Source: a virus
IMG/VR virus record: IMGVR_UViG_3300030116_003833
Location: 1-42,047 of that record
Reading direction: 5' to 3' (one strand)
Length of the DNA stretch: 42,047 nucleotides
Shown here: one piece after another, positions 1,378 to 40,304 of the stretch
How positions within the stretch are numbered: position 1 is the stretch's first letter
Layout of the letters: each line of letters opens with the position of its first letter
Made by a program: the position numbers and the translations under genes
Notes under the pieces: generated by a model
The model's input: the letters and a program-made list of their open reading frames with translations, nothing else
Database searches by the model: none
What the model was told of the DNA's origin: nothing

Positions 1378-4300
1378 GTGAACCGTGAAGAATTCATTCG
1401 CATCCGAACCGATGCTTTGGTTTCGTTTCACAACAACCCAGACTTTTCGCCAGCCATTTACCACAAAGCATACGCTGAATACTACGGGGATTCTCAAGAC
1501 ATTGAGAAAGAAGATCAGGCTATGATGGCATTGATGCCAATGATGAACGCCCCACAGTATAGCATGAAAGACCTTGACAAACCATCAATCCTATCCAATT
1601 TGGAAATGCCAAATGGGTATGAGGATTTTGTAGCAGGGCAAAGAAGGTTTAGCACCAATTACGCTGAGGATTGGCCTCAAGCCAATGAAAACAATGCTTT
1701 TGGCAAGCGACACCCACTATCGTGGGATAACTGTGTAATGCCGTTGCTACATGGCTCACAATGGGGCGAGCCTCATTTCATTGAACATCTATTTCAAATG
1801 ATAAAGGAGGATGAGGATGGACACAATATGCTTCACGCCATGCAAGAAATGGAACGAAGGGGTGTTGTGCCATTGGAATATAGGGATGTTATCGGAAACC
1901 CTACTGAGCCAATGATTGACCTATACCGTGAAGATCGTGAAACACGACACCCGTTTTTGAGCGATGAAGAATATCGTGAAATGAAAACAAAACAATGGGG
2001 AGGCAGCGTTGGTGGCAAAGGAAAAATGATTGCCAAGAATACCAGCCGTTTGGGATTGCTTTCATATCTATTTGGAACAGAATGGCAAACACCTGAGCAA
2101 CGCCAAGCCTTCATGTCGTTGTTGAAAAAATTGGGTCAAACCTCAGAAGAGGATAGTCCAAATGCCCGCAAAATAATCAATGATTTCAAAGCGGAGGCTG
2201 GCATATCATGGGATAGGGCTAAGCGAAATTGGTTTGAGCGTTTGACACCATTGGCTCGTTGGTGGGAACGGGCTTCGCACCACCATGGCCCGGTTAGTGC
2301 CGAACCAACCATGGAGGGATTGCGCCATTTCAAATCCCCGTATGTGTTGGATGAAAATGGAAATACTGTTCCTTCTCACACCAATCATCATTGGGAACCA
2401 TATCAGTATTGGGGCGGGGTTGGTCGTGATTGCGATTCCCTGCGCTCTATGCTAAGTCAGTCATACCCTGCTGCTTTCAAAGAAGGTTGGCTTGGTGATA
2501 GCCTCATGGGTTATTTGACCGATAAAAACCATCCAATGAATGACAGGAATGACTCATATCACGGAAGTGGTTCATCGTTTTTCCCAAGCACAATCAATCA
2601 TCCTTCAATGGCTATGCACCCCAACCGCCCTGCACTTGGTAGTGGTTGGGAGGCTGGATCTGATAATCCCCGTGTGCGTTCTTTCAACAGAAGGAGAGGA
2701 CTTTGGAACACCATTTCAAATCACCAGCACCTACACCCAGAAGAGGTTGCGGGTAGTGGTGGGAGAATGATTATCCCCTCCATGGCTTTGACTCAACACC
2801 CAATCGGGCGGATTATTTCATCCCACACCGACATGGGTGCGCCTCGCATTGGCCCTACACGAGAACGCCATCCGGGTGATGAACAGTATCACACATATCA
2901 TAACGACCACTATGAAAAAAGCGATGCCAACATTGGAACAGTCATGCAAGAGATGGCTAAGGACATAATGACCCGTTATGGGGGTCAAGTGTTTTCCCAA
3001 AACCAATCCGACCTTTTGAGCAACACAATTAACCGAGGAAACATTCAGCAATTGGCACAGGCAGCAAATTACTACTTGATGCGTGGAACACGAGAGAACA
3101 CAAAGTCAGTAGCACCTATGGTGATGGGCGATGGTTTGGCTTCACGAGAAGTGGATGTTGGGCCGGTCAATCCAATGGCATCCGCTACTATTCCTCCAAT
3201 TTACTTGAGCGGTGATAAAGACGCATGGGGGCATAAAATGCCAGCAACACTTGCATGGAAATGGGATATGGATGAAAATGCCATTCGCTTTGATGTGAAG
3301 GATAAACCGTTTGATGTAATCCAAAAAACCGCACATGAAGGGCATTTGGATATGGTTGATCCTACGCACAAAATGGGTGGTATTGCACCAAAACAATCGG
3401 ACTCACCCGCACTATTCAGCACAAATGACATGGGTCATAGTCCAATAGTCAGCGGTGATTTGTTCAAAGCCGATGATTATGAAGCCACAGGAGTATTCAC
3501 AACCCCTGTCGTTCCCGCACACACCATTTACAAATTGAGCGACATTGATGAATTGAAAGGATTCAGCGGGGATTGGGTCGTGCAAAAGAAACCTGAAGGC
3601 AAGCGAGTCTTTGTTGAAAAGAAGGGCAGCAAAATCACCGCCAAGAATAAGCAAGGCAAAGAAGTCAAAATGGCTGATATTGTCAAAGAAGGTATTCGTG
3701 AACAGATGGGCGACTTTGTGTTTGACGCATTTTTGAAAGGCAAGCACTTGAGAGCCGTTGATTTGTTGGTTCACCGAGGTGAGGACATTCACATGGAACC
3801 CCTTGAAGATCGACTCCAAATCCTTCGCACCATGTATCACACCAATGATAACATTTCATTCCCAATGCCACTTGACACCAAATTTACCGACCAAGACGGG
3901 TTGATGAAAAACACCCATGCGATTGGTGGTGATTTGTGGATTCGTGATGCACAGTCCACCTTTGCTAAAGGCAAAGAAGCACACCACCTTTGGATTCTCT
4001 ATTCTCCAGACGATGAAAGTGGCTTGACAAAAGGCACAACCCTGCCGTTTGTGTCAAACGATGGAGAAAACATTCTGTTGGAATACCCCGGTCATATTGC
4101 CCCGTTGGTCGTTAAAGGCGAATGGGAGGGGGATGCTTTCATCGTCAAGTCCATTACACCGCACAGTCCATTGTCTCGTCATGCCATGAAACAAATTGGG
4201 GTTTGGGGTTCACTTGGCGTGAATATGTTGAAGGCTGGTGTCCGTGAAAAGACACTTTATCCTCCGCCTTTGATGACAAAGGACACCTTTACTTTCACCC

Positions 4301-4890
4301 GTGCTACTTTGCTTGAACCTGATGGTGATGAAAATGAAGTGGCTGAAATTATGCGCCATGCGAGGAAAAAAATCCAAAACGCTGACAAATCAATGACGGC
4401 TGACGAATTGATTGAAGGCACAAAGAATTTGACCGAGGCTATGCTTGACAAATACGGTAATGAATTTGGTCTTGAGCGTGTTGCTGAAACGGGAGAATGG
4501 ACTTTGAATGAAGCACTTGATGATGATACTGTTGAAACAAAGCAAGGATCTACACTTGCGAGAATCAGCGGTTCTTTATCGGGTGGTGGTTGGCAAGGTG
4601 AAATGGACATGATGACCGCACCAAGAGGGCCAACCTCCATTGTTGATGATGAAGGAATACCAATGTTTGACCCCAACGGGATGGCTGATGAGAAGCCAAC
4701 GCAATTGCCAAATCACATCAATGTGCGAACCAAAGACGGCACAGGTGAAAGCATAGAAGGCGACTTAGACATTGAAGAGGGTCGTGTTGTGCTTCGTGTT
4801 CCGCAAAAAACGAATGTTGAACAGGCTGCTGAGAACGAAGTGGTTGTTGAACAAGACGATGATAGTGAGCAAATGCCTATCATGTCGTGA
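1378..4890 (+). CDS. 1170-aa head-module protein with DNA-ligase-like nucleotidyltransferase domain
   Basis: The start is GTG 1378, led by TGAGGTGAT at 1366-1374, which overlaps the previous stop. Residues about 1-700 are hydrophilic, rich in His, Trp and Met, and unrecognised. Residues about 720-880 resemble the adenylation domain of ATP-dependent DNA ligases. KPEGKR at 738-743 fits motif I (KxxG; usually KxDGxR). A segment around 785-815 (GDFVFDAFLK, RAVDLLVHRGEDI, PLEDRLQILR) follows the order and spacing of the ligase core. GGDLWIRDAQSTFAKGKE at 850-867 sits where motif IV and V sequence is expected. The motif III and IV glutamates are missing, so activity is uncertain and the domain may be a pseudo-ligase. 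The C-terminus is acidic. It precedes the prohead protease, so a virion or head-morphogenesis role is inferred rather than a replication role. Confidence 0.75.
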   Translation: MNREEFIRIRTDALVSFHNNPDFSPAIYHKAYAEYYGDSQDIEKEDQAMMALMPMMNAPQYSMKDLDKPSILSNLEMPNGYEDFVAGQRRFSTNYAEDWPQANENNAFGKRHPLSWDNCVMPLLHGSQWGEPHFIEHLFQMIKEDEDGHNMLHAMQEMERRGVVPLEYRDVIGNPTEPMIDLYREDRETRHPFLSDEEYREMKTKQWGGSVGGKGKMIAKNTSRLGLLSYLFGTEWQTPEQRQAFMSLLKKLGQTSEEDSPNARKIINDFKAEAGISWDRAKRNWFERLTPLARWWERASHHHGPVSAEPTMEGLRHFKSPYVLDENGNTVPSHTNHHWEPYQYWGGVGRDCDSLRSMLSQSYPAAFKEGWLGDSLMGYLTDKNHPMNDRNDSYHGSGSSFFPSTINHPSMAMHPNRPALGSGWEAGSDNPRVRSFNRRRGLWNTISNHQHLHPEEVAGSGGRMIIPSMALTQHPIGRIISSHTDMGAPRIGPTRERHPGDEQYHTYHNDHYEKSDANIGTVMQEMAKDIMTRYGGQVFSQNQSDLLSNTINRGNIQQLAQAANYYLMRGTRENTKSVAPMVMGDGLASREVDVGPVNPMASATIPPIYLSGDKDAWGHKMPATLAWKWDMDENAIRFDVKDKPFDVIQKTAHEGHLDMVDPTHKMGGIAPKQSDSPALFSTNDMGHSPIVSGDLFKADDYEATGVFTTPVVPAHTIYKLSDIDELKGFSGDWVVQKKPEGKRVFVEKKGSKITAKNKQGKEVKMADIVKEGIREQMGDFVFDAFLKGKHLRAVDLLVHRGEDIHMEPLEDRLQILRTMYHTNDNISFPMPLDTKFTDQDGLMKNTHAIGGDLWIRDAQSTFAKGKEAHHLWILYSPDDESGLTKGTTLPFVSNDGENILLEYPGHIAPLVVKGEWEGDAFIVKSITPHSPLSRHAMKQIGVWGSLGVNMLKAGVREKTLYPPPLMTKDTFTFTRATLLEPDGDENEVAEIMRHARKKIQNADKSMTADELIEGTKNLTEAMLDKYGNEFGLERVAETGEWTLNEALDDDTVETKQGSTLARISGSLSGGGWQGEMDMMTAPRGPTSIVDDEGIPMFDPNGMADEKPTQLPNHINVRTKDGTGESIEGDLDIEEGRVVLRVPQKTNVEQAAENEVVVEQDDDSEQMPIMS

Positions 4891-4900
4891 ACCTATCCCT

Positions 4901-4909
4901 TCATATAGG
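4901..4909 (+). promoter_or_regulatory. TATA-like box upstream of the prohead protease
   Basis: The sequence is TCATATAGG, centred about 27 bp upstream of ATG 4932, in a short stretch that is non-coding if that ATG is the start. This is the usual TATA-to-start-site distance in archaea and would give a leaderless mRNA. It matches the layout of the boxes at 7435, 8884 and 14331. The box itself is imperfect, so confidence is moderate. Confidence 0.4.
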
Positions 4910-4931
4910 ATTACATATTTTGCTTGGTTCA

Positions 4932-6254
4932 ATGAACACCGCTACATGGTCGGCAACAGGTCAGGATTTCATCCTAAAGGCTGATGCTAACGGTGATCTT
5001 GTTATTGCGGGTTATGCCTCCGTTGATATGGTGGACAAGCAGGGCGACAGAATCCCTGTCAGCGCACTAAAGAAGGCATTCGGTGGGTTCATGGCGAACC
5101 CATCATACCGTAATGTGCAATTGGCACATTCGGGTATTCAGGTTGGTGAAGTATTGCCCTCCTACACAGATAGTGAAGGGCGAGTATGGAAATCAGCCGT
5201 TGATGAACACGGGTTGTTTGTTGTTTGTCGCATTAGAGACGACATTGAAAAAGCCCGTGAAGTCCAAAAGCAGGTTCGCTCAGGCGAATTGCGAGCATTT
5301 TCCATTGGAGGTCAAGCCCTGTTCCGTGTGAACAAGACGACCCCCGAACATGGATCGCACAGGGAGATTACGGACATGGAATTGCACGAAATCACCCTAT
5401 GCAAAAAGGGAATCAACCCAGAATCCCGCTACACACTATTGAAAATGGATGTGGATGATATGACCGATAATACCGAAGTATTGACAGAAGTAAGAGATGC
5501 CCTTGCCCGAATCAGCAAGGGTATGCAAGAAGCAAGCATGAAAACCTACGAGGATGAAAAGCCGAAGAAGGAAGAAGATGAAGATGTTGGCAAGTCCGAA
5601 GAATTGGCCGTTGCCTACATTGATACTCTTGAGAAATTCGCACACGAGCAAGGCGTTGATCTTGATGGACTCCGAGACCACTTTGGACTCGGCAAAGCCT
5701 ACATGATTGGCGTTGATGGTGAACATGGTTTCAACCATCGTGGTCAGGGCGACCTTTACGGTAGCGGTGAGGATGCAACCCTTGCACCTCGCCCTGCTCT
5801 CGGAAATGCTCGCTCAAACAAATATGTCATTAAGCAACCCGGAATGATGAACCAACCTACCCCATCGGGCGGAAACAATGTCATCAAGGGCAGCGACTTG
5901 ACTCCACAGAACCTTGAGCGTGGCTACCAAGCATACGCAGCGATTCGTGATGAAGAAGCCGTGAAATCCCTCGTTGAGAAGGAATGGTCTGACCGCTATG
6001 AAGCAGAAACGACCCGTGCTTTGGAAATCCACAAATCCAAGGACTTCACCAGCCAAATTGAAGCATTGAAGGCTGAAATCAATTCCCTCCGCACCGAGAA
6101 CGCTGAAATCCAAAAGTCAGCCGTTCCTGTGCCATCCGAGAACGCAATCCGTGTTCCTACACATGAAGAATACGCTGCTCTCGGCAACGGACTTGACGGT
6201 TGGAGAGCCATTGAAGAATTGGCTCAAAAATCGTTGTTTGGAGGAAACCTTTGA
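4932..6254 (+). CDS. Prohead (capsid maturation) protease with C-terminal scaffold-like region
   Basis: This encodes 440 aa from ATG 4932. A GTG at 4887 would add 15 hydrophobic residues unlike a protease N-terminus and would bury the TATA-like box. Residues about 22-130 match the HK97-type S78 prohead protease pattern: GYASVDMVDKQGDRI at 27-41, a candidate catalytic His66 in QLAHSG, and candidate nucleophile Ser124 in ELRAFSIGG. Residues after about 180 are charged. A predicted coiled coil around 370-400 (IEALKAEINSLRTENAEI) resembles the delta/scaffolding extension often fused to these proteases. It cleaves capsid and scaffold subunits during head maturation. It lies directly upstream of the major capsid gene, as usual. 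Confidence 0.85.
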   Translation: MNTATWSATGQDFILKADANGDLVIAGYASVDMVDKQGDRIPVSALKKAFGGFMANPSYRNVQLAHSGIQVGEVLPSYTDSEGRVWKSAVDEHGLFVVCRIRDDIEKAREVQKQVRSGELRAFSIGGQALFRVNKTTPEHGSHREITDMELHEITLCKKGINPESRYTLLKMDVDDMTDNTEVLTEVRDALARISKGMQEASMKTYEDEKPKKEEDEDVGKSEELAVAYIDTLEKFAHEQGVDLDGLRDHFGLGKAYMIGVDGEHGFNHRGQGDLYGSGEDATLAPRPALGNARSNKYVIKQPGMMNQPTPSGGNNVIKGSDLTPQNLERGYQAYAAIRDEEAVKSLVEKEWSDRYEAETTRALEIHKSKDFTSQIEALKAEINSLRTENAEIQKSAVPVPSENAIRVPTHEEYAALGNGLDGWRAIEELAQKSLFGGNL

Positions 6255-6265
6255 GGTGATTTGTG

Positions 6266-7432
6266 ATGAGCGGAAGTCAAGGCTATATTAGAACAATTGA
6301 GGACATGGAACGCCTGTATTACGGTGCAGGATCAGGACAGAACGCATGGGCGTATTCGGGAACGGATTTGCTCAAGGCTGACTCCCCACTTGCCTCTTCA
6401 ACCAGCGGAACATACCAAGCGATCTTCGGGCGCAAGGTCTGGTCTCAATTGAACCAAGAATTCAACGCATTTTCAATCCTCCCAAAGAAACCTTGGGAGA
6501 AGTCGGGATGGCGTGTTACCACCGCTAAGCCTTCATTTGAGAAGGGTGGCGGTGTTCCTGAGAACGCAACCCTGCCTGAAACAACCAAGCCAACATTTGC
6601 TGAGGTCAGCACCAAGCCAAAGACTGTTGCACACACCTTTGACTTGACTGAGACTGCTATGTTCCTCGCTGACAAAGACGATGGTCTTGGTGATGCTCGT
6701 GCCGTTATCAAAATGGAAATGGCAAAGCACCACACAGAACACATCAACCGAATGCTGCTGAGCGACATTGATACCACCGCAGGGAACGACTTTGAATCCC
6801 TTGACCGTATCACCTCCAATTCCTACACGGAGGACTACAACACTTTCAGCGATGTGAGCGGAGAAGCAGACCACAACATCTATTCCTTGACCCGTGCGGG
6901 TCAAACCGCTGGTTCAGCCCAATGGTATGACGCACAGGTTGATGCTGGTGCAAGTGGTGCTGAGCGTTCACTATCCCTCAACATTCTTGACGGTATGTTC
7001 CGCCAAGTCTGGGAGGCTGGTGGCCAGCCCAAGGTTATCCTAACGGGCTATGATACGCTTGAAACCATCCAGCAATTGCTACAACCACAACAACGCTTTG
7101 TTGAAATGAAGCGTGTTGTTCCCGGTGTCAATGGTGTGAAGGGTGTTCCCGGTATTCAAGGTGGCTTCATGGTCGCTACATACAACGGTGTGCCAATCAT
7201 CCCATCCAAGGATGTCCACAAGGAATCTGGCGGTTCTTCTCGCCTTTACTTCCTTGACACGGATTACCTTTGGTTCACTACTGCAAAGCCTACTCTTTAC
7301 CACGAGTCTGGAATTGAAACAGGTGATCCATTCGGTATCAACCGTCTTGGACAAATGGGAATGTTTCACACAATGGGTGAATTGATTTGTGCCTTCTTCA
7401 AGGCTTCGGGCAAAATCCGAGACCTGAGTTGA
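6266..7432 (+). CDS. Major capsid protein, HK97 fold
   Basis: This encodes 388 aa. ATG 6266 is preceded at ideal spacing by GAGGTGAT (6253-6260); a GTG one codon earlier is less likely. The protein has the features of HK97-fold capsid proteins: a helical N-arm, a strand-rich segment with GVPENATLPETTKPTFAEVS (about 95-115) as the presumed E-loop region, a long spine-like helix (ARAVIKMEMAKHHTEHINRM), an A-domain region with VILTGYDTLETIQQLL, and a C-terminal GELICAFFKASGKIRDLS that closes the fold. It forms the icosahedral shell and is probably trimmed by the upstream protease. The codon choice is regular, as expected for a highly expressed gene. Identification rests on translated sequence and gene order. 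Confidence 0.88.
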   Translation: MSGSQGYIRTIEDMERLYYGAGSGQNAWAYSGTDLLKADSPLASSTSGTYQAIFGRKVWSQLNQEFNAFSILPKKPWEKSGWRVTTAKPSFEKGGGVPENATLPETTKPTFAEVSTKPKTVAHTFDLTETAMFLADKDDGLGDARAVIKMEMAKHHTEHINRMLLSDIDTTAGNDFESLDRITSNSYTEDYNTFSDVSGEADHNIYSLTRAGQTAGSAQWYDAQVDAGASGAERSLSLNILDGMFRQVWEAGGQPKVILTGYDTLETIQQLLQPQQRFVEMKRVVPGVNGVKGVPGIQGGFMVATYNGVPIIPSKDVHKESGGSSRLYFLDTDYLWFTTAKPTLYHESGIETGDPFGINRLGQMGMFHTMGELICAFFKASGKIRDLS

Positions 7433-18221: not shown

Positions 18222-20879
18222 ATGCCTGTTCGGAAAATTCACACCAAAGCGGTGAGGCTAAACGGATATACCGATGGAATGGTTGTTCCTACGGGCGCAT
18301 TCCGTGAAAGCGGTGTTGATTTGTTTGCTAATGATCATAGCGAAAAGACGGGTGCTACAAACAAAGTATCGTCATACGAAAGTGATGCCCCCAAAATAGG
18401 GCGACACCATTTGCCAATGGAGGGGAACGGACTCAACAATTTGATTGGTGCTTTCACCCTTGAAGCGTTTGTCATTCCTGATCACGGAGGCGTTGTCATT
18501 CACAAAGAGAATGGCTTTACATTGAAAGTAGGAGAACCCTTTCAACCAGCACCAATCATTTTTGAAATACACACGAGGACATCCAATGGCAACCAAAGTG
18601 AACGGCTAAGCACACCATTCAATGTTCCTACTGTTCAAGAGTCATGGGGAACATATACAGACGGTCAAGCAAAGCCACACGATTTGTCATTACCATCCCG
18701 TGAATTGCTATATGTCAATGCACAATTCACCACGAAAAAAATGTCAATTTTTGTAAATGGCAATTTGGTCGCTGAGCAAGACTTTGGTGGTGATGAACGC
18801 CTTATTCGTGTTGGTTCATCCGACCTCTTCATTGGTGGTGAAGGAGGGGAGTATCGTGGAGTCATTGAGAGCGTGAGAATTAGCCGAGGTATTGTTGAAC
18901 CATTGGTTCGCCCGTTCACCACAACACCAGATACGGTTGGTTTGTGGGATTTTGAGGATGAGGATGATATACCACAGTTATTCTTTTTCAACAACAAAAA
19001 CCCATCCCACCCCCATCAAGGCAAGGATGGCATAGGTGCTACTGATGCGTTGATGCCTATGCCTATGGTTTGTGTTGCTTATGACTTCACAAACATTGAC
19101 CCCGGTGGTGCGGTAACTACTGCTTCGGGGCATCCCCTCAATTTAGCAAGTGGCTACAAATACGGGTATTTTCGGATAAGGGATTTTCCTGATAGCGTCA
19201 TAGCCAACCTTGAAGATCGCACAACCGCATTGGAAATGCTTGCAGCACACATCCTTTCTATGCCTGTCAATGAATTGAAATTTCAATCGTGGTGGGATAG
19301 TGGATTGCTGGACATTTCATCAACAATCACCAACGCAACCTATCATTCCGATGGAATCCCTGTTTCAAACATCAATGCCATCGTGAACGCTTCAGGAACA
19401 AACCCAATCACAGGAGGGAGTATGTCGCCATTTACTTACTACCGTGAAAGCGATACTGCACCTTATTCACCCGAAGGGGGTATCAACCTTGACCCCATGG
19501 CTAATCCAATTGAGCGTGTGCGAATTGTTGCCATTGACTTCAAGGGTGATTCGTCTTTGGGGCGACCTCCTTGCGTAGTAATTCAATCATCTATTCTGTC
19601 AGACACCACAAACGACCCAACAACACAGGGATTTTTGTTTGAACACGCTGATAATACCCCTGTTTGGTTCACGCTTGGCAACGGTGATTTGGTGATTGAC
19701 CCCGGCAAAAAAGGCACACGACCAAGAGGACAAATGACTCGTGCGAGGTTCACACAAAATCAACGCTTCACCGATCGAACAGGATTGGGAAACGATGCCT
19801 ACTTCATTTCACGCAAATCAAGAATGACAAATGACATGAAAAACAAATTGTCGGTTGTTTCAGGTTCACAATTCTCCTACGAACCTCCCCATGGCAACGA
19901 CCTTCTTCTGTGGCTTGATGCAAACGACAAAAATCAATTGTTGAGGGATGATGGAACGGCAGTAGTCAGCGATGATGAGTATGTGTTTTGGTGGAAAAAC
20001 AAAGCACGGGGTGGCCCGACAACAAATGCGGGAACGGACTATCACTTCTATTCATGGGGCAACGGATGGCGGTGGAAGGAGAATTGCGGTGCTGCCAATA
20101 ACCGCTCAGGCTTGGTTGCGGTGGCAATATCCGAAGTAGTGCAGAATCCAACGGGCGGATATGTTTGGCCCGGTGGCACACCTACAATTCAAACGGGTGT
20201 TATTGTTCCGCAATACCCAACAGGAGTAACCTACTACAAAGGTTCTTCATGGGTCAATGGTTTTGGCAATTCTGGATCGGCAAGAATAAATCACGCAGCC
20301 TCCATAACCGCAACGGCTTTGGGTTCAGCACACGCCAGCACACTATACGGTGGTGGCCCGTCTATGACAGATGGCGACCATTCGTTTTACTTTGTCATCA
20401 CCCCTGCCTATGGTAGCGACCCATTGGGTCTTTTGCATTCCGAAGCCAACGATGGATTTGTGTTTCGTTTGGATGATTCGTCTGATGACATAAGCGTCAG
20501 TATTACAGGTTCATCAACACTATCGGCTGGTGCATCAACCCGCCCAACGACAGGCACACCGACTTTAATCGCTTTGAGAATTGACGAATCAACAAACACC
20601 ATCAAAATCCTAAAACGCTCTAACGGTGGTGCTTCAAAAGACGAGTATTCAAACATAGGATTCACTTCAACCAATCCCTTGGTTTTTGACGGCACTACGG
20701 CACAAACGGGAGGAATTGAATTGTTTGGGGAAATGACCGCAAGTGGGGGCAACAACCTTATTGACAACATGGCACAAAACGGTTTCATAGCCCATGAAGT
20801 GTTGGCATACCCCAAATTGCTGACCGATGCTGAACACGATGATGTTGTTCAATGGTTTGAGGACAGGTATGGTGTTTGA
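18222..20879 (+). CDS. Tail fibre/adhesin protein with two concanavalin-like (LamG) domains
   Basis: This encodes 885 aa. ATG 18222 directly follows the upstream stop; the frame is open further left but only in the shadow of that gene. Residues about 60-235 look like a LamG/concanavalin A-like jelly roll: LIGAFTLEAFVIPDHGGVV, YVNAQFTTKKMSIFVNGNLV, DLFIGGEGGEYRGVIESVRI. Residues about 575-885 contain another (NDLLLWLDANDKNQLL, SFYFVITPAYGSD, GFIAHEVLAYPKLLTDAEHD). Such domains bind glycans or protein surfaces and are common in receptor-binding tail proteins. With the next gene it probably forms the tail tip or side fibres that contact the archaeal cell surface. Confidence 0.65.
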   Translation: MPVRKIHTKAVRLNGYTDGMVVPTGAFRESGVDLFANDHSEKTGATNKVSSYESDAPKIGRHHLPMEGNGLNNLIGAFTLEAFVIPDHGGVVIHKENGFTLKVGEPFQPAPIIFEIHTRTSNGNQSERLSTPFNVPTVQESWGTYTDGQAKPHDLSLPSRELLYVNAQFTTKKMSIFVNGNLVAEQDFGGDERLIRVGSSDLFIGGEGGEYRGVIESVRISRGIVEPLVRPFTTTPDTVGLWDFEDEDDIPQLFFFNNKNPSHPHQGKDGIGATDALMPMPMVCVAYDFTNIDPGGAVTTASGHPLNLASGYKYGYFRIRDFPDSVIANLEDRTTALEMLAAHILSMPVNELKFQSWWDSGLLDISSTITNATYHSDGIPVSNINAIVNASGTNPITGGSMSPFTYYRESDTAPYSPEGGINLDPMANPIERVRIVAIDFKGDSSLGRPPCVVIQSSILSDTTNDPTTQGFLFEHADNTPVWFTLGNGDLVIDPGKKGTRPRGQMTRARFTQNQRFTDRTGLGNDAYFISRKSRMTNDMKNKLSVVSGSQFSYEPPHGNDLLLWLDANDKNQLLRDDGTAVVSDDEYVFWWKNKARGGPTTNAGTDYHFYSWGNGWRWKENCGAANNRSGLVAVAISEVVQNPTGGYVWPGGTPTIQTGVIVPQYPTGVTYYKGSSWVNGFGNSGSARINHAASITATALGSAHASTLYGGGPSMTDGDHSFYFVITPAYGSDPLGLLHSEANDGFVFRLDDSSDDISVSITGSSTLSAGASTRPTTGTPTLIALRIDESTNTIKILKRSNGGASKDEYSNIGFTSTNPLVFDGTTAQTGGIELFGEMTASGGNNLIDNMAQNGFIAHEVLAYPKLLTDAEHDDVVQWFEDRYGV

Positions 20880-20881
20880 TT

Positions 20882-23800
20882 ATGCCCGAATTAACTGAAA
20901 GTATGATTCTCACCGCAATTGCTACTGATGCTGCAACGGCATCAACCGAATTGACTCAAGCCCTAATTGAAATGACACAGTATATGCCTGTTGTAATCGT
21001 TCCCAATTTGCCCGGTCAAGCAGACCCGGTTGAAATTGTGGAACATGAATTTGCCATATCCGCATACAACGCAATCCGTTGGATGATAACGAAAGGTTTG
21101 GTTACAAAAGGCCCGTTATTGGCAACCCTTTTGATTGAATTGGGCGCAAACCCTCATGCGCCTCCTACACCACCAGCGCACACCATCAACGATCTGGATG
21201 ATTATTACATCAATGTTGTAAATGGTGGCTCAGTCATACTCAATTCGGGGGATATTACCGCTGCGTTCCTTGGTGTTCCTTCAACCCCAATTTACGGTAG
21301 TGGCAACCCACCAGCAACAGGCGATGCCTTCTCAACCGTTTCTGGTAATTTGACACAACCTGTGAAGGACATACCGGGTATGTGCGGTTTAACCTCCTAC
21401 AATCGTGTTGAAGGTCATTTCTATTTGAAGCACTTGCCCGAACCAAAATTGGAAAGTGTGCGAAGGACTGTGCAAGGGGTCAGCGATAGGTTTGAAAGCC
21501 AATATGAAGATCCGCACATCAAAAGTGTGGTGTCCAACAATGAGAAGGTGCGATTGACTGAGCAAGTCTTTTCTGGTGAACCATTGACAATTGAAACCAA
21601 GACTCAATTGGCAACCTACACGGCAAGTGGTGTGGTAAAACACGCCTTTGTTGTTCAAGGGGGCGACTCTTTCACCGACACAACCTATGGGAATGTGGTG
21701 TCATCAACACAGGATTCAATTGTAGCAATTGCTTTGGAGGACATTCGCCCGTTTTTATTGAAAGGCTTAGACGATGAGGAAAACGCATTGTTTGATTTGG
21801 TGAACCCAACAAAACCAACAAATGAAAATTATGTCCGTCATTTAGCACCAGAAGCGGAGAGCAGGGTTGCGGTGCTTGAAACCCCTACTGCCCTACAAAA
21901 TGCGGGCGGGCCATCAAAAATACTGATTCACTACAACGCCATTGATTTGACAGGAGAAGTGGTGGCTGGTTGGAAATCATCATCATACTTCACCGCCAGC
22001 GACCATGCTCACACATACCGCAACGACATGGATGCTATTTTGACAATGGAGTCAAAAGGGTGGCTGGTTGTTGAGAAAACCGTTCCTGACACAAACACGG
22101 TGTTTGTTGATACTTCACATGGCTATCCTGTTTATCGCACCGTGTTGGATTGGTTAAGGCGACCTTACAACGCAAACCAATTCTCATCACCACCCACATA
22201 TACTCCTTTGACAATTCATTCACCGGGCGGTATTATCACCATCCCGTCAAAGGACTTTCAAGGGGAATTGATTGACAATTCTTTGCGATCTAACCCTACG
22301 GGCGACCTATCCATTTCACCCTTCATCAATTTGGATAACTGCGCCCACACCGTTATTCAACAAACCATAGCGGGCAACCGAATACGGAATGACCCATACG
22401 GGCCACCCGTTGCTATTCCGCACACCCGTAGCCCAATTCAAAAGAACGATAGCGTGTATCACACCTTGACTATCACGAGCCAAACCAAAGAGGATTTGCG
22501 TTCTTCATACTCACAATCACCATCATTGACCCCTGTCAATTTTGAACAATTTGACATCATTGATAATTTGGTAAAAGGGGATAGGCACACTATCCTTATC
22601 CAACCATCAAACAGGATGCGAACCAAAACACTTGAAACAATCAAAACACGCCAAGATGGTCTTTCACGCCATCACAATTGCAGTATTGAATTAACCTTGA
22701 TGCGGGGTCGCATTGAAGAAGTCAATCCGTTAAGCGGGGATGATAATGCGAGCGGTGTGTCTTTGCGTGGGCGTTCTCAATTGCTTGACATTACCGATCG
22801 TTTAGCCGAGCGAGACTTCTCATTGAATGAAGGATTTGGTGTGAAGGAAATAGGTGATTTGGGTTCACCAGCGGTGAGCATGACTCTTGGTGGTCTGGGT
22901 CAAGGTGGTATTGATGTAGCACCGACTCGCACCGAGCATAGCAAATTGCCAATTTGGAAGGATAAGGTGATTGGCACAAACAACCCATCCGTGCGGAATG
23001 ACAAACAAACCTCAACCTACTATGCCTCCACGAGAGCATTGGTTGAATTGCCGTTGTTCCCATCAATGTTCTATGACATCAATAATTGGTTGCCAACCAG
23101 CGTTGAAAAAAGAAGTCCTTTACCTACGGAAAAGTGCATGGAAATGGTAATTGATTGCACTATGACGGCAATAAACCGCCCACAAATGCAACATTACGAA
23201 AACCGATGGGCGATTGATTGGGGTATGCGTGGTAGCGTTTCATCAATGAAAATCCACGACTACAAACCCGTAGCAGGGCAAACCATCATTCGTTTCATGC
23301 GTGAAAACGCTGCTTCGTTTTTGAAATTGGGAACATACTCAGGGGGTGAAACGATTGCTGCGTCAGGCACATCGGCATCCGATTCATACATTGAAGTGGA
23401 TAGCGTTTATCCATTTGTTGAAGAAGGGGGTATCAATTCATTTGCGAGCATAAGCAACAAAAATGCCACGGGCATTACAATCAACACACTTCTTGGTGAA
23501 CCAGCAGGATCAACCACATTGGTGGTAACTTCGGATGCCCGACTTCATTTCAAAACGGGCGACAAAATTTACGCTGGTATTTCAGGTGCTTTTGTAGGAA
23601 CGGTTGCTTCGGTAACCAGCACAAACATCAATTTGACAAGCGGTTCGCTTGTGTCATTGAATAACGGAGAGGATATTAGCACACCGTATTGGAATCTTGG
23701 TTCAGCAAGTGCTACACCAAATGGCGACAATGGTTTTGCAGTTACCGTTGGAGAAGGCGTGATAAACGACACAGGTGGCATCCGCCTCCGCATTTACAAA

Positions 23801-26695
23801 GCGTCAATTCACGGGTTATCACATCGTCTGTATTTTGACACATTTCACGATTGGGGGAATCAGGCAGCGACATTGACCGAAGTCAAAAATCAAATGATTA
23901 TTGGGTTGCCTGTTGTAATGGGTTGTTGGCTATCCGATAATGATTCAAGTTTCAACGGAACGGTTCAACCGTTGGTTGGATTTTCCGCTACTGCTGGAAC
24001 GAGCAATAGCACCATGGCACAGAATTTCATCAATCCAATGAAGAACGCTCTATGCCTTGGAAATACCCCAAGCAATAGGACTTCAATTTGCATTGACCCA
24101 TCGGACAGTAGTCGCATCCTAATCAATGGCGGGGTGTCCATGGAGGGCTTCTCATTTGACCCCGGCAATCACCTATACGGTGCTGATGATATGCCACTAC
24201 TCCCTCCTGTGGAATGTAGGACAGGTCATTTCGCTCTCAAAGGCAAGCGTAATGACAACACATTGGATTATGTTCGCCCACTACATATAAACCTTGGAAG
24301 TGTAGCCAATTCAAACAATGTCAGCAATTTCCGTGAAGCGGTCAATGAAGTGATACGGAAAATCAATCAAGCAGGGCATCCAGATGCGAAGAATAGCAAC
24401 GGAGGAAGCGCATTCAACCCACCACAATTATTCACAGAAGCAGACGGAACAGAAACCGTTTCAAGCCTTGATACGGGAACGCACATGGGTTATGTCCGTG
24501 CGTTCTTGGGCGAAAATGTTGAAAGCCGTGATGGTGAAAGAGGCATTTCAATTGTAATTCATAGCACTATTCCCGGTGCTACGGGTCGCAATTTTGCCGT
24601 GTGGTTGCACAACCGAGGTATCTATCCTTATCGCCCTATCCAAACAATAGGGCATGGTGGGTTGTTGGCGACAAATAGCCGATCGTATCAGGCTTCATCA
24701 TTCCCTGCCCCTTTGCCATTAGGTATGGATGGGGAAACACATATTCCGATTACTACATTTCAAGGAGGTGTCCACGGTTCACTTCAAAATGCCAAGGGCG
24801 ACCTTCGCACCTACAACGGAATAGGCAGCGAATTTATTCTCAAAGGGATAAAGAACGCCAAGACAAATGCTGGCAACAATTTCCCGGCTTATGACATTGT
24901 TTCATTCCCACACATAGCCGTTGAAAGGAACGCATTGGATTTAATCAAACGGTATAGTCAGCACACCGATTCTTCAAGTGTTGGCTACATTTTGGTTGAT
25001 GATAAATTGGTTGGAACATTTGAAAATATCGTGGGTGCAATTGGTGGAACAAACGCCAAGCGAGAAGGTGTAGGGTCGTGTGCATTCTTAACCAATGCTC
25101 AACCTGTTGATGATGGACTGATTAAGAAGTGGTCGGAGTCCTTTGTTGATCGTAATGGAGAAGCAAAGGATTCAGTCATTCGCATCCTCTATCCTTTACC
25201 TGACGCACACGGCATTCTGTTCTTTGGTGGTGGACACACGGGAACGGTCTTTGACATCAGCGATGGAACGAATAACGATTACTCCGATTTTTACACACAT
25301 CATTATTCTCAAGGGCCAACGGGTTATGGTGGCTTTCAAAACCTACACGAAGTGCAAACATCGGCAGCCGTATTGGACTTCACAAACCTCAAAAATACAG
25401 ATACCGTCAAGGAAAACACCTATCAAGGAATACACACTAAGCATGGGGTTGTTCAATCGGGTCAAATGCCCGATGATTCGCACTACATTGAAAATGAATG
25501 TGTGTTCTATGCAAGACTAAACGAAGATGCACTATTCGCCACAAACCACGGAACAAACGGTGTTGAACAAAAAATTGACACATTGTTTGGGGTTAAGGGT
25601 GTCCTTTACGGCAATTACTCGGCTAATGCTTTGGGTGGCCCAATCACGGCTGACGGAGATTCAAAGGGCATGGATTGGGCTACTGCCAATAACATGGCTA
25701 TGTCGCTACATCATGTGGGCGAAGGAACAGGCACGAGTCCTCAAATGCGTGTCGCTTTGACTGACCCAACCAGAATAGTCGGTTCTGATCCGCAAGGGTA
25801 TTCTGTGTCGTTTTTCGTGAGCGCAAAACCAAACATAGGCCCATGGACAAGTGAAGCATACGCTAATGGCCCTGTGCTTCATGCTATCACAGATAACAAT
25901 GCAACGCTCGGTGTGTCGCTATTGACAAAAGAAGGAAGCGACCCTGCTATGATGGAAATGATTGTAGTCGTGAGGTGTCCTCAAAGCATTGGTTCACAAT
26001 TTGACTACTATTGTCCAGCATTTGAAGTGGAAAAAGACGCATGGACTCATATTGTTGTTTCATGGACTACCGGGCCAAACGCTCAAATTTATGTTGATGG
26101 TGTTTTTCAAGCGTATGCGGGTGGCACATCATCCGCTGCGGAATTGCGACAGATGGGTGATTCATCATACGAAGCGGGTTCAATCGCAAACACCCCTCAT
26201 TTAGCACCAACCATGGGAATCCCAAGACTCGTTTCGTCTGGGGTGCTGGTGAATAAAACGGGAGGCTATACGGCTGGTGAAACGGACACGATTGTGGTTG
26301 ATACCGTAACTGCAAGGTCGCAATTCTCAATTGGCGATGAGGTGTTCAATGCAAGTGATCAAATCTTGGGCGTTATCAAGACACTTAACGACACAGGAAT
26401 CACCTTCACGACCAAATTGATAAATGCCGTTGGCAACAATGGCAATTTGAAGAAGGCATCAGCATTGGCAAGCACTTGGTATGGGCGCACAAGCAATATG
26501 CTCGCCATTGGAACGGCAATCAATTCTTTAACACCAACCTCAACCTACTACTATGGGCGACACTATGGCGGTGCATCCAACGCTTACGATCCGATTTGTT
26601 TCAAGGGTGCGCTTGCAGAAGTAGCGTTGTGGAATAAAGTGCTATCACAAGCAGAAGTAACCGAATTGTTTGATGCTCAAGGGGTGTGGAATTGA
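20882..26695 (+). CDS. Giant tail protein with C-terminal LamG domain
   Basis: This encodes 1937 aa from ATG 20882, just after the previous stop. The N-terminal 60 residues are helical, and the rest is strand-rich. A small beta-module of the type GDKIYAGISGAFVGTVASVT lies at about residues 876-935 and a related one (IGDEVFNASDQILGVIKTLN) near 1800-1855. Residues about 1638-1937 look like a LamG/concanavalin-like domain (YSVSFFVSAKPNIGPWTSEA, TGPNAQIYVDGVFQAYAGGT, FKGALAEVALWNKVLSQAEV) interrupted by the second module. There is no visible catalytic motif. It is likely a baseplate or fibre component used in adsorption. Function is inferred from domain type and gene order. Confidence 0.6.
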   Translation: MPELTESMILTAIATDAATASTELTQALIEMTQYMPVVIVPNLPGQADPVEIVEHEFAISAYNAIRWMITKGLVTKGPLLATLLIELGANPHAPPTPPAHTINDLDDYYINVVNGGSVILNSGDITAAFLGVPSTPIYGSGNPPATGDAFSTVSGNLTQPVKDIPGMCGLTSYNRVEGHFYLKHLPEPKLESVRRTVQGVSDRFESQYEDPHIKSVVSNNEKVRLTEQVFSGEPLTIETKTQLATYTASGVVKHAFVVQGGDSFTDTTYGNVVSSTQDSIVAIALEDIRPFLLKGLDDEENALFDLVNPTKPTNENYVRHLAPEAESRVAVLETPTALQNAGGPSKILIHYNAIDLTGEVVAGWKSSSYFTASDHAHTYRNDMDAILTMESKGWLVVEKTVPDTNTVFVDTSHGYPVYRTVLDWLRRPYNANQFSSPPTYTPLTIHSPGGIITIPSKDFQGELIDNSLRSNPTGDLSISPFINLDNCAHTVIQQTIAGNRIRNDPYGPPVAIPHTRSPIQKNDSVYHTLTITSQTKEDLRSSYSQSPSLTPVNFEQFDIIDNLVKGDRHTILIQPSNRMRTKTLETIKTRQDGLSRHHNCSIELTLMRGRIEEVNPLSGDDNASGVSLRGRSQLLDITDRLAERDFSLNEGFGVKEIGDLGSPAVSMTLGGLGQGGIDVAPTRTEHSKLPIWKDKVIGTNNPSVRNDKQTSTYYASTRALVELPLFPSMFYDINNWLPTSVEKRSPLPTEKCMEMVIDCTMTAINRPQMQHYENRWAIDWGMRGSVSSMKIHDYKPVAGQTIIRFMRENAASFLKLGTYSGGETIAASGTSASDSYIEVDSVYPFVEEGGINSFASISNKNATGITINTLLGEPAGSTTLVVTSDARLHFKTGDKIYAGISGAFVGTVASVTSTNINLTSGSLVSLNNGEDISTPYWNLGSASATPNGDNGFAVTVGEGVINDTGGIRLRIYKASIHGLSHRLYFDTFHDWGNQAATLTEVKNQMIIGLPVVMGCWLSDNDSSFNGTVQPLVGFSATAGTSNSTMAQNFINPMKNALCLGNTPSNRTSICIDPSDSSRILINGGVSMEGFSFDPGNHLYGADDMPLLPPVECRTGHFALKGKRNDNTLDYVRPLHINLGSVANSNNVSNFREAVNEVIRKINQAGHPDAKNSNGGSAFNPPQLFTEADGTETVSSLDTGTHMGYVRAFLGENVESRDGERGISIVIHSTIPGATGRNFAVWLHNRGIYPYRPIQTIGHGGLLATNSRSYQASSFPAPLPLGMDGETHIPITTFQGGVHGSLQNAKGDLRTYNGIGSEFILKGIKNAKTNAGNNFPAYDIVSFPHIAVERNALDLIKRYSQHTDSSSVGYILVDDKLVGTFENIVGAIGGTNAKREGVGSCAFLTNAQPVDDGLIKKWSESFVDRNGEAKDSVIRILYPLPDAHGILFFGGGHTGTVFDISDGTNNDYSDFYTHHYSQGPTGYGGFQNLHEVQTSAAVLDFTNLKNTDTVKENTYQGIHTKHGVVQSGQMPDDSHYIENECVFYARLNEDALFATNHGTNGVEQKIDTLFGVKGVLYGNYSANALGGPITADGDSKGMDWATANNMAMSLHHVGEGTGTSPQMRVALTDPTRIVGSDPQGYSVSFFVSAKPNIGPWTSEAYANGPVLHAITDNNATLGVSLLTKEGSDPAMMEMIVVVRCPQSIGSQFDYYCPAFEVEKDAWTHIVVSWTTGPNAQIYVDGVFQAYAGGTSSAAELRQMGDSSYEAGSIANTPHLAPTMGIPRLVSSGVLVNKTGGYTAGETDTIVVDTVTARSQFSIGDEVFNASDQILGVIKTLNDTGITFTTKLINAVGNNGNLKKASALASTWYGRTSNMLAIGTAINSLTPTSTYYYGRHYGGASNAYDPICFKGALAEVALWNKVLSQAEVTELFDAQGVWN

Positions 26696-26696
26696 T

Positions 26697-29600
26697 ATGG
26701 CAAAAATAAGGTCATTCAAACGAGAAGCATACCCTGCTGATACCCGCACAATGGGAACAGACGATGCTCGCCCACCGAGCGGGTATTTCAGCCTCCATTT
26801 CACATACCCTGATACCGAATACACCGATGCTACCGCAACCACATGGGCTGCGGGAGGCAACAATTTGGGAATGCACTTTTTGGTGCGAACCAAATTGGCA
26901 AACGATAGTGTTGGAACATACGCTAATGGCGACAATTTTTTCGTCATTGATTTGAAACGAGCGAGCGAGGCAGCAACCGCTGCATCATCTTCATTGACCT
27001 ATGACTTGGGTTCAAAAGAAGCAGCCATGATGATTGCTTCGGCAATCAATTCATCCCGTGATTATCAAACGGGTTCACATTCAAGAGGTCGCTATTTGCG
27101 AGCCAAATATCAAAAAATGTCAGGAAAGGAAACCTATCAAGGAACGAATAACAGACCACTTGGATTTTTGACAGGCGGTGAGGGTGGATCGCTGAAATGG
27201 CAATCGGAAAATGACTACGCAAAAGGCTCAACCAATGTCATAGATGTGAAAGAAGCAGCGGGCGGAAGTGTCATTTTGACAACCATCCACGAAGGTGATA
27301 AAATTTACACGGCTGGTGCTAATTCACGCTATGTTGGAACAGTAGCGAATGTAATCAGCACACGGATTTATTTTCAAGACGCAATAGCAACCGATTTATT
27401 CACCAGCGACCCTATTCGTCTTGGTAAAGTGGAAATGATGTTTGGAGAATTGTATCTTGGAACGGACACGAACAAAATCCCTGCTCTTGGTTTGCCATCG
27501 GACATACCCCAAAAGGGAAAAATGACAACAACAATTTCATCAACCACCTACACACTATACTACGATTCGTGGACTGTTGGTCGTGATGACAATTTCGTCA
27601 ATACCGATCAAGGTGGTGTGATCATGTTCAATGTTTATGACTATGACACCGCATTTGATTTTGACGGCATCGCTGGAACCGAACCCATTTGGACAATTGA
27701 CAATGACACAAAGCAACAACATACGGTGGTTGTGTCATGGGAAAGCGACACCCCAACGGGAGGGGGCTATTGGGGAACGGCAAACGGTGGCCCTATTGTG
27801 CAAGGATTGGGTGCGCCTTTGCCTGTGTGGTATTTGGCTGCTAAACCCATGGATGGGGGCAATATGGGATTGCCTGACATTGGACACGAATCACGAGGGG
27901 CGCAACCATCCGCCCTTAGCGGGCATGGGTATAGCCGATTCTCCATTGAAGGTTTGAATTCATGTGCTTTGCCCGACTTGCCTCCACCTGATATGCCGTT
28001 TGATGGCCCATCAATCATGGGTGAAGTCGCTGCTGACCCGTTTCAATGGACAGGTTTGACACCACCAAGAAGCACCGTGCAAAAGGACACTTTGCTATTG
28101 GAGGAAAATGAATTTGGAACATTGATGGATTCAATAAAACCCCGCCCAACAAATTGCTACATCAGCACCAACGCTGATATTGCACCCGGTGCAACCGAAT
28201 TGAAAATCATAGCACCAAACACCGTTTTCAAAGACCACTTTGATGTTGGTGATACCATTTATACAGAAGAGGGAGAGGTTGTAGGGGTCATCAACAACAT
28301 TAGCGACATTCATTCAAGTGGTTTGAGAGCAATTGGCCCAAAGCACCGTTCAAGCGGGGTTCAAATTGTTAGAGGGCTGGTTGATGCTGGAATCACGGCA
28401 AACGGAAATGTGGGTGTCGGTTCAAGCACTACAATTAACACAAACGGTGATCCAAGAACCGCCTACAATATCGGTGATATTGTTTATGGGGGTGGATTAA
28501 AGTCATTCCCCGTTGGAAAAATACAGGCTTTGACCGCATCATCAATCACCTTAGAAGCCAACAATGCGATGGTGATTATCAACAATTACCCATTTTATCA
28601 TGTTCCTCGTGGCACAAGCACCTATCAATACTTGGTTTTCAATGATGATGTCAGTAGCACCTTTGTGATTGGTGATGTGTTGTATGATACCGACAAAAAT
28701 CAAATTGGAACGGTTGCTGAATTAACTGTGGATGGCGAACCGACAACAATAGGCATTGTTGGTGCGAGTATTTCACCATTAAAATCAGATCTTGTGCCTC
28801 TCAAGCAAGTGGTGAATTATGAAATCATCAGCAAAATCGTGGCAACAGGAAATAGTTACACTACCGCCACCAATGTAGCCACCACGAGCGCAACGGGTTT
28901 GGGAATGACGGTGAATTACACCGCTTATGATGGAGGTGTAGTATCGGTTCAAGTCCACACCGCTGGTAGTGGATATAGCGTAGGGGATGTTATCACCATC
29001 ACAGGTGGTGGTGGTAATGCAACATTCACCTACACAGGGAAACCAGCGGGTGTGTCCTACACATCAAGTGATTTTGATGCTGGTGAGGAATTACAGGTGT
29101 ATAATGACGACCCCATAACGGTTGGTGCAACGGCATCGGCTTTCGATCCAGAAGCGTTTGGTGATAATGGTTCAATTTACGCCTACACCAATGAAAACAA
29201 TCCTCGGACTATCCTTGAGTCTGCGTCTGGGATTTTGGCTACTGCACTTAACGCAACCCTCGGTGATACTCGTGTTCCCTACACCACCTCATCAATCATA
29301 CTCCAATCACATGACGGTGAAATAGCCAACGATTTACCACTATACCGAGCCGTTTCTAAAATCACTTTATCATCAGCGACCACCGTGAACCTGTTTAACG
29401 GTCAAGGTCTGTTCAAATCCAAGGATAACGCCCCATGGTCTGTTATGCTTGAAAATGGGTATAAAATGCTCAGCGATTTTTCAACCCACACCAATTCTGT
29501 TGATGGGGAATATGCTGAAATGTCCAACCTGTATCAAAGTAGTGTTGCACGAACCAAAGCGGTTGCTAAATTTGGTTTGAAAAGCGAAAACACATTGAAT

Positions 29601-32600
29601 GCCACTTCAACAAATCCATTTGTAGGAGAGAAAGGATTCGTCAGTCGCCCATACCGCACAACCCGTGATGTGAACACACAACGGGTGCGTGGGTTGTTCG
29701 TGTCAAACGAGGAAATGGTGTGGGAAAGCCTGTCCGTTGTTGATGATAAAGGACAAGAATTGATTTTGGAGGGCGGTTCACCCTTTGGAACGGTAATCAA
29801 GGATTTCACCTACAAACAAACACGAGTCAATCCCAACACAGGAACAGAAACACCTCTCCCTTCAACGGTTGGAAGCGGAATTGAACCCAATTTGGAAATC
29901 AACCTCCCATCACAGGATGAAATACCGGGGAATATCATAGTGCGCTCAGGTCATGATCGTGTGCAAGCGTGGTCTAACCTCACATGGGGCATGGGTGGTC
30001 TTTCAGCACCAACCACAGGTCTTGCGGGCGAGGATGAGCAATCAAGCAAGTCCGTTAGGGCTACGGCATTTGACACACACGACAGGATGTTGCACTTTCA
30101 CCCTGTGCGTATCATTCACGATAAATTGGAGGGTCAATTCGGTTTGAATACCAATGCCGTTGCTGGTGGTGTGCCAAGTGGAACGACCAGATTGTTCGCT
30201 GCTCACAGATTGAGTGATCACACAGAACGAGGGTCGGTATTGAAAGACACCGACAATGGTGTTGATGGCTCATACCTACACCCTCATCACCGCATTCGCT
30301 TTGGTCGCCAAGGACACCATTTTGTTGCACCATTGACAATGCGAGGAACACCGATGGCTTTGCGTAGGCAATTGCACCGTTCACACGGGTCGGCATATTC
30401 GCTATTGTTTGAAGCCGAAACGGAAAACAAACATTGGGGCTTTCAATCCACCTACAATGGAGGATCCGCACCAAATCCATCCGCAACCACCTATTACCTT
30501 GATACACTTGAGGTCAAATCCTATGCTTACAACACAGGTTCTTTCGCTGCTGATGGTTTCCCAATGGATGAAATCAAGAACGCTGGCTTGCCAAATTGGA
30601 GGCGGTATAATGGTGCTACACCACACGAAAAAATTGATGTTTTGTTTGCACCGGGGCAATTGCACACAAAGGTGGAGGGGGCTACTGAGCAAGCACAATG
30701 GGTGAGCGACTATCACCCAATGGATGTTTCAAATTGGGGTGGCCCGTATGGGAACAACATCACCAACGGGCCAATTGCTTTGACCGTTGATTCAAGAACG
30801 GTGAATAACAGGCATAATGCGGGAGAAGAATTCACATTGAATGGGTTTATGCTTTCACAATACACGCTGATGGGTGGTCGCCCCGAACCAGCGTGGAATC
30901 AAAAAGTGGCTGAAAGCCTCAATGGTGATACTCACCACTACACTATGACAGGACACCCTGCTGGATGGCGCACGGCTCGTGTAGGCACAGAATTGGCTAC
31001 CGTGCCACCATTGATTGCACACGACCCCGAAATGGTGAACGCATCAGCCGTTCCTGTCGCAATTGTTGAGTCGCCTTCATCAGCAAGTGATTTTGAAGCA
31101 ACAGACTCCCATGCTGATATGGCATTGGTGGGTTCAAGCGATACCAATTCTCAATCCATACCCGATGCGTTCCTTTGCACATGGCTGGCTGAGTATTCGC
31201 ACCCTGCACTACTTGGCACAAACCGTGAGCATTACATGACATTCCGATACCGTGAAGCGGGTATGCCAAATGCGGTTGATCAACCAAGTGTGCGTGGACT
31301 TTACTTGCGAAACGCACCAGCCATTGACTCAGGTTCGGTGGATAAGGGAATGCCCTTTGAACGAATCTATGCGTTTCAATGGCTACAACAATACGGCTAC
31401 AATGGTTTGAATGCTGGCGGGCATGGAACGAATTGGGGTCAAAGGGCAGCCAATGCGGTTTTGATGGGGCATTCGGGATTGCGTGAACCACATGGCACAC
31501 TACGGTTGCCACATCAATTTACATTGAGAGGCGTTAGTGTGCGCCAATCCCGTGGAGAAGGTATTGGTGATGGGCTGAACCCTCGCAAGATTTTCAGCCG
31601 TTGGGTGTTAGACCAAGACACCACCAATTCATACAAATGGAATCAGATGTTTGTGGTGAATAACCCAATGGTTGCTTTGGATTGGAGTAGGCGATTGCCT
31701 CTCCGTGCATTTGGTTTCAAGACAGGATCAGACGCATTGAATATGTTGGCTGGCGACCCAAGTGAAACATCATCCTCAATGAACGCCATCCTCCGTTCCG
31801 CACGGTATGATGGTGGCAAGCACGATAGCATGAACGACATGGAAAAGGGTGTTGATTGGGCGTGGGAATCATCAGCAACCTACACGGGCGTTGAGCGAAA
31901 CACACCAATCGGTATTGTGGTTTCACAACAAACCAACGAAGGCTTCAACGGTCAAGGTTTCAACAGGCTATCAAATGACCCATGGACACAGAAGGAAAAG
32001 CGTGTGGGTATGGGGCGTGTGCTACAAAACGATAACTTGGGTATGGTTTCACCACGGGCTATGCCGTCTGGTGTCATGGATGCACACCGAACAGAATTCG
32101 CAACCATCACCGGGTCAAGTGCAAAATTCCTACAAGCCAAATCAGTCAATACGGGTTCTGATCCTATCATTGGTTTGAACCACCATTCGGGCGATAGGGT
32201 GAAGGCTGCTGATTCTGTTGAAGCCAATTATCAATCATCCGAATTCACCGCAACAGTAGGCAACGAATTCTATCATCACAAAGGAAACAACCTACACTTG
32301 AACGCTCATCCCGTTGATGTAAAAATCAATGGTGAAACCGACAATCAGCATTTCCCTGCGGTTGGTTGGGGCAAGAACCTCAACATGAAGGATAAGGGGC
32401 AAGCCGAGCGTGGAACATTACCAATTCCTTTGCACGAAATCGCAGACCACCGTCAAGTGCAATCCGACTTATCCCCTCGTTTGGGTATGTCCGTTGAAAC
32501 CCATAGTGAATTCACCACGGGCAAAAACACAGACTACATCATCACCAGCACCAAAGCCGTTTCACTTCATAGTGATTTGGCAGTAGGGCAAGTGTTCCCT

Positions 32601-38611: not shown

Positions 38612-38775
38612 TGGGAATAATGGAAACAATGTTGTTGGCTTTTATTGCGTTTGTTTTTGGATTTGTCTTGGTTTGGACTTGGACTGAGGATTTGGGAACA
38701 GATGTTGTAATCTTCACAAGTGATGATGAATTACAGGAAATGTGCTGGACAGGATTGCGTCATAAGAAGGATTAG
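38608..38775 (+). CDS. 55-aa single-span membrane protein
   Basis: The short frame begins at ATG 38608, overlapping the previous stop (or ATG 38611), and ends with TAG at 38773-38775. Residues about 4-24 (METMLLAFIAFVFGFVLVW) form one transmembrane helix. The remainder is polar and acidic with a basic last turn. It is the last gene of the + strand operon, and its final four bases overlap the end of the convergent methyltransferase gene. Small membrane proteins in this position could be holin- or spanin-like lysis factors, but nothing in the sequence proves that. Confidence 0.5.
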   Translation: MMGIMETMLLAFIAFVFGFVLVWTWTEDLGTDVVIFTSDDELQEMCWTGLRHKKD

Positions 38776-39911: not shown

Positions 39912-39956
39912 CAACCACCCCCTCTCAAATGCTACGCTCATGGTTGCCCGTAGGGG

Positions 39957-40178: not shown

Positions 40179-40304
40179 TTACTCATCCTCCATGCGAATC
40201 AATTCTTGCTGAATGGGTTTGTGTTGTGGCGTGTCAGGATAAAGAATGTGTCCGAGGTAATACAGAAAGACCATGCCTATGATACCAGCAATCAATTCGT
40301 TCAT
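40179..40304 (-). CDS. 41-aa membrane peptide
   Basis: This is a complete short frame from ATG at 40302-40304, overlapping the stop of the 191-aa gene as ATGA, to TAA at 40179-40181, immediately before the next ATG. The sequence begins MNELIAGIIGMVFLYYLGHI, one transmembrane helix, followed by a polar tail (YPDTPQHKPIQQELIRMEDE). The exact fit between its neighbours makes it likely to be real despite its size. Function unknown. Confidence 0.55.
   Translation of the reverse strand: MNELIAGIIGMVFLYYLGHILYPDTPQHKPIQQELIRMEDE

Follow-up and report, generated by a model that had tools for sequence, protein, structure and literature searches.

A putative pseudo-ligase domain conserved in a head-gene product of tailed viruses associated with marine Poseidoniales

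The window analysed here, a stretch of 42,047 nucleotides of viral DNA (IMG/VR record IMGVR_UViG_3300030116_003833), encodes in its head module a protein of 1170 amino acids, in which profile comparison and structure prediction confirm residues about 712-880 as a nucleotidyltransferase domain akin to that of ATP-dependent DNA ligases. Judged from the alignment of its homologues, this domain is a maintained pseudo-enzyme and not a relic. The explanation that is on balance favoured is that the product serves a tailed-virus lineage infecting Poseidoniales as an obligate protein of head morphogenesis, is cut by the prohead protease and carries a ligase fold as a non-catalytic binding module. The protein would enter the prohead, where the protease would cut after K697 to give a 79-kDa N-terminal part and a 52-kDa C-terminal part with the pseudo-ligase. 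The latter would seal no DNA; as a reused module it would bind some head component, nucleotide or DNA structure and would be required for the head to assemble or mature.

The gene (1378..4890) is an open reading frame with a GTG start, and full-length homologues of 1083-1182 aa occur in strict synteny. Its N-terminal part (residues 1-697, 1378..3468) is predicted by AF2 to be dominated by helices with some beta strands; it belongs to no known family and gave no match in Pfam or among PDB sequences. A linker with the candidate protease site L-F-K-A-D (residues 695-699, 3460..3474) leads to the ligase-like domain (3511..4017), which is followed by a small beta-rich extension (residues 885-955, 4030..4242), modelled by AF2 as four strands and two helices within some 70 residues, and by an acidic C-terminal part (residues 956-1170, 4243..4887, pI 4.3). 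These features, like the motifs and the protease and capsid genes described below, are on the plus strand. No fold could be identified for the first 700 residues, and the role of the complete protein is therefore read from the position of its gene. The sequence-only reading had placed that gene with small head genes on one side and the prohead protease on the other, a position borne out by Pfam and phrog matches and by synteny. Downstream are the S78 prohead protease (4887..6254; PF04586, 9.6e-9), the true start of which is probably the ATG at 4932 as relatives begin MNTATW, and the major capsid protein (MCP; 6263..7432; phrog_24667, 2.7e-51). The portal was found upstream of the gene in 57 of 57 cases, and protease and MCP downstream in 53 of 53, a count in which four flagged proteases start at distance 0. 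In loci L003 (4807-6054) and L011 (4955-6424) a gene of about 415-490 aa stands between TerL and portal, and the L003 product had no Pfam match. Elsewhere in the window, the tail region holds two giant open reading frames (20876-26695 and 26670-35570; 1939 and 2966 aa), and after the structural module (38772-42024) there are three minus-strand frames of 389, 192 and 382 aa, the first and last of which had no match among PDB sequences.

The similarity to ligases began as a series of motif strings noticed at 3544-4005, all of which proved to be in frame and in the right order within the reading frame. They are the motif I-like WVVQKKPEGKR (residues 733-743, 3574..3606), which ends in the K738-PEGKR743 string with the K738 codon at 3589-3591; the motif III-like GDFVFDAFLK (residues 778-787, 3709..3738); the motif IIIa-like AVDLLVHRGEDI (793-804) with the PLEDRLQIL helix (808-816), together at 3754..3825, which are near-invariant in homologues and show pairwise similarity to DNA ligase 1; and the motif IV/V-like GGDLWIRDAQSTFAKGKEAHHLWILY (residues 850-875, 3925..4002), of which GGDLWIRDAQSTFAKGKE (850-867) had been picked out initially. 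PF01068 is the sole Pfam match of the protein, with an E value of 0.077 for the whole protein and 0.0022 for the domain alone. The profile match proposed earlier as a check was thus obtained, for the window protein and for each of the eight relatives in the initial test (best 7.5e-4), but in sub-threshold form, the window protein scoring 13.1-18.3 bits against a curated cut-off of 26.2. A wider set of relatives gave a PF01068 match in 17 of 42 at E 0.1 (best 5.9e-4). The NHEJ ligase family TIGR02779 matches three relatives (best E 5.9e-5), and the m3G-cap-binding domain of snurportin-1 (PF21974) matches two family members (best E 0.0045). When a profile of 67 homologues was aligned by hhalign with 13 real ligases, residues 719-880 were collinear in one piece, motif I fell on motif I and P was 8e-4. 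The real profile scored 30.5 against 16.7 +/- 3.0 for 200 column-permuted profiles (maximum 27.6), and no score above 14.0 came from four other regions of this protein.

Structure prediction, another of the checks that had been suggested, returned a nucleotidyltransferase fold. The top 50 PDB matches of the AF2 domain model in Foldseek are all DNA ligases or guanylyltransferases (best E 2.7e-8, prob 1.00), those of the full-length model are ligases only, and the nearest structures to the domain are 3rr5, 4eq5, 6wbo and 2hiv. Among viral structure models the full-length model matches chiefly ligases and capping enzymes, the best BFVD match being A0A516LT18 (827 aa, E 5.6e-12, 503 columns). A search for relatives among GenBank phages gave only a chance-level match, to a Cronobacter phage DNA ligase, and none with two divergent members as queries; a match to phrog_4938 was set aside as chance, since 28 residues were aligned to a profile of 50 aa. 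It might be argued that the ligase similarity is spurious and the fold falsely assigned, given that the family scores are sub-threshold, that the family-alignment profile (hmmsearch) matched no ligase among PDB sequences and that AF2 confidence is middling (pLDDT 69 for the domain model and 74 at full length, pTM 0.57-0.58). However, evidence of three independent kinds converges on one fold in one register, and such an error is regarded as highly improbable.

The catalytic positions were counted in 67 non-identical homologues. At motif III the window has Phe in place of the catalytic Glu, and the homologues have Tyr (43), Val (16) or Phe (8) and in no case Glu. The position of the motif IV Glu is Gly851 in the window, with Glu in 8 of 67 and an acidic residue one place on (852) in 61, and the motif V Lys (position 874) is kept in a single homologue. 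The loss of the motif III and IV glutamates, already reported for the window, extends to the whole family for motif III and to most of it for motif IV. The same cannot be said of the nucleophile Lys of the KPEG motif, which had been described as kept: K738 is present in the window, but homologues have Lys in 42 of 67 cases, Met in 20, Arg in 2, Val in 2 and Gln in 1, and the residue has been changed on several separate branches of their tree. With the motif III Glu absent, the motif V Lys and motif IV Glu mostly lost and the nucleophile replaced in 25 of 67, the domain is very unlikely to be a ligase enzyme, and of the two terms 'ligase or pseudo-ligase' offered by the sequence-only reading the second applies.

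An active, if unusual, ligase or nucleotidyltransferase, working to join or repair DNA that has been packaged or injected, would fit the retention of the fold and of K738 in the window and in most homologues. It would also fit the lack of any other recognisable ligase in these viruses, which is counted in favour of the preferred explanation as well: up to 16 related records (74-108 kb), some of which may be fragments, yielded no other ATP-dependent ligase, no NAD ligase and no PF09414 RNA ligase, one of the scans having no positive control of its own. The substitutions at motifs I, III, IV and V weigh against it, and such an activity is considered very unlikely. The loss of catalytic residues likewise makes the joining of packaged DNA ends, once suggested for this protein, unlikely, and a re-used fold is the best of the options raised at that stage. 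Nor does charge favour non-specific DNA binding, the domain being near neutral (pI about 6.1-6.6) and the C-terminal piece strongly acidic (pI 4.8). The domain has invariant residues of its own, namely H799, R856, D857, S860, F862, K864, H869 and W872. It is improbable, though less so than ligase activity, that H799, R856-D857, S860, K864, H869 and W872, around the old motifs IIIa-V, mark a remodelling of the fold into a novel active or ligand site that acts inside the head. Were this true, it would be an enzyme-derived sensor in virion assembly, with for example DNA ends or nucleotides timing packaging or protease maturation.

Loss of catalytic residues might equally be expected of a functionless, decaying relic of a captured ligase. 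The pattern of conservation speaks against this. Mean column identity is 62% in the ligase-like domain against 48% and 47% in its flanks (calculated on different row sets), and as the best-conserved part of the protein the domain appears to be held by purifying selection. Scans of IMG/VR found 92 relatives with the domain as query and 118 with the N-terminal part as query; 80 of the latter were examined, and the domain was present in 77 of the 77 homologues with a complete 3' end, so that no homologue without it was seen among those found through the N-terminal part. Being both the most conserved region of the protein and one that no complete homologue lacks, the domain is not a relic, an explanation that is the least credible of those considered here.

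One homologue comes from a single-cell genome of Poseidoniales, AG-422-I20, where it lies on a contig of 106 kb. This contig ties the virus group to a Poseidoniales host, with the possibility that a free particle was captured with the cell. The whole head module of these viruses is seen on a contig of this genome (locus L047 8090-11395). The AG-422-I20 genome has an NAD ligase and gave no PF01068 match, and the domain was therefore probably not acquired recently from this host. For the magroviruses described so far an ATP-dependent ligase is reported (PMC10160649, PMC10768690, PMC12999244). PolB (PF00136) was found in records of the window's clade (behind L020, L032, L052 and L063) but was not found in the remaining large viral records that share the head module; replication modules thus differ beneath one conserved head module. 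As PolB is limited to the window's clade and the magrovirus-type ATP-dependent ligase is missing, the viruses are assigned neither to Magrovirales nor to Adrikavirales.

The linker in front of the pseudo-ligase (residues 682-705) is modelled with low confidence, and within it the string [LI]-x-K-[AS]-[DE]-D-Y is near-invariant, with Leu or Ile, K697 and Ala or Ser each in 67 of 67 homologues. A related motif, DLLKAD, is found in the N-terminal arm of the MCP (residues 35-40, 6365..6382) in 52 of 52 orthologues (DLLKADSPL), with SKADNLL at the corresponding alignment position in Druskaviridae MCPs. In the proteins of the window (12,568 aa) DLxKAD occurs twice against an expectation of 0.007. 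The looser form [LIVMF]xK[AS][DE] was conserved in at least 30% of sequences at one column in six of the nine genes that run from the one following TerL up to and including the MCP, against none of eight controls (TerL and the genes after the MCP), a comparison to be read with the caveats that the motif was spotted by eye before it was tested and that the upstream genes have together about twice the length of the controls. When Lys was swapped for 13 other residues at most one of the nine genes scored. The motif is present in 92% of homologues of the 1170-aa protein and in 100% of MCPs; for the portal and two small genes the strict form is limited to between one third and one half of the orthologues, and the instances in protease and portal may be structural. 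In the giant phage SPN3US a single motif is cut by the protease in MCP, portal and ejection proteins (PMC7411985). By the shared motif and by this analogy [LI]xK[AS]D at K697 is a candidate prohead-protease site, and the 1170-aa protein a likely protease substrate inside the prohead. The HVTV-1 MCP (L098 12447-13820) contains KLRKADG and GMSKADN, and the HVTV-1 protease (L098 10518-12431) contains VVSKADGD. The sequences suggest an xKAD maturation consensus common to Druskaviridae and these marine viruses.

A protein that is packaged and cut need not have its function in the head. It could be ejected cargo, injected with the DNA, with the dead ligase domain serving as an inhibitor or protector that binds nicks, ends or the targets of host DNA repair. 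The domain composition of effectors tends to differ from one to the next, and the single architecture seen in 77 of 77 homologues is not what this would lead one to expect; the near-neutral domain and acidic C-terminal part also argue against it. Druskaviridae, the nearest known viruses by MCP, do place large proteins with zeta-toxin and ADP-ribosyltransferase (ART) domains at the same position, but hhalign detected no homology between the 1170-aa protein and their large head protein (HVTV-1 gp115 type). There is also precedent in T4 Alt and internal proteins, SPN3US and P1 Dar, which are protease-processed ejection proteins (PMC7411985, PMC12810830). Ejection is accordingly held to be a rather unlikely but substantial alternative, and an assembly or structural role for the pseudo-ligase protein is preferred, as no homologue departs from the one domain architecture.

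Nucleotidyltransferase folds without catalysis are already known, and so are head proteins processed by a protease; as far as searched, it is their combination in the head gene of an archaeal virus that is new. No described case of a ligase fold in an obligate archaeal-virus head gene was found in the open-access literature searched, of which coverage was incomplete, and within that scope this would be the first instance in which a head gene of a tailed virus includes a DNA-ligase fold as an obligate but non-catalytic component. It is conserved throughout a viral lineage whose hosts are abundant marine archaea, and a fold of DNA-repair enzymes has seemingly been reused for building or loading the virus particle. 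A practical consequence is that a gene labelled 'DNA ligase' in such genomes may encode a head protein. The K697 motif in turn supplies a consensus against which cleavage by prohead proteases can be tested in tailed viruses of archaea.

Comparison with known systems begins with the Druskaviridae (HVTV-1, HCTV-1 and HCTV-5), whose MCP is 32% identical over its whole length and whose protease is related. They share with these viruses a large protein upstream of the protease and a KAD motif in the MCP arm, but unlike the 1170-aa protein their large head protein carries zeta-toxin and ART domains. The counterparts are of 1210-1313 aa (L098 5207-9148, L100 5507-9139, L101 4742-8623); the zeta-toxin kinase domain has an E value of about 1e-20 (HVTV-1 and HCTV-1 scanned, HCTV-5 as annotated), the HVTV-1 protein also has a C-terminal ADP-ribosyltransferase domain, and it is possible that these proteins are ejected effectors. 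A ligase-like domain fused to the Druskaviridae protease was considered and rejected, the weak hhalign matches (protease residues 130-211) being the start of the protease domain after a ChaB-looking N-terminus. The head proteins T4 IPI-III and Alt, SPN3US gp53 and gp54 and P1 DarA are likewise encoded by head-operon genes and have a cut motif shared with the MCP, which is predicted here and shown for SPN3US (PMC7411985). The 1170-aa protein, known here from sequence, is unrelated to them in sequence and would be divided into two large parts, with no short propeptide. The ligases of PF01068 (archaeal enzymes, human LIG1, LIG3 and LIG4, and LigD) resemble the viral domain in fold, in the order of motifs I, III, IIIa, IV and V and in the PLxxR helix. 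The viral domain differs from them in lacking the motif III and IV Glu and the motif V Lys, in its variable nucleophile, in having no demonstrated DNA-binding or OB domain and in being fused into a head-module protein. Snurportin is related to capping enzymes, and its m3G-cap-binding domain (PF21974) is likewise a nucleotidyltransferase-type fold reused for binding; by comparison the viral domain is closer in sequence to DNA ligases and has its setting in a viral head.
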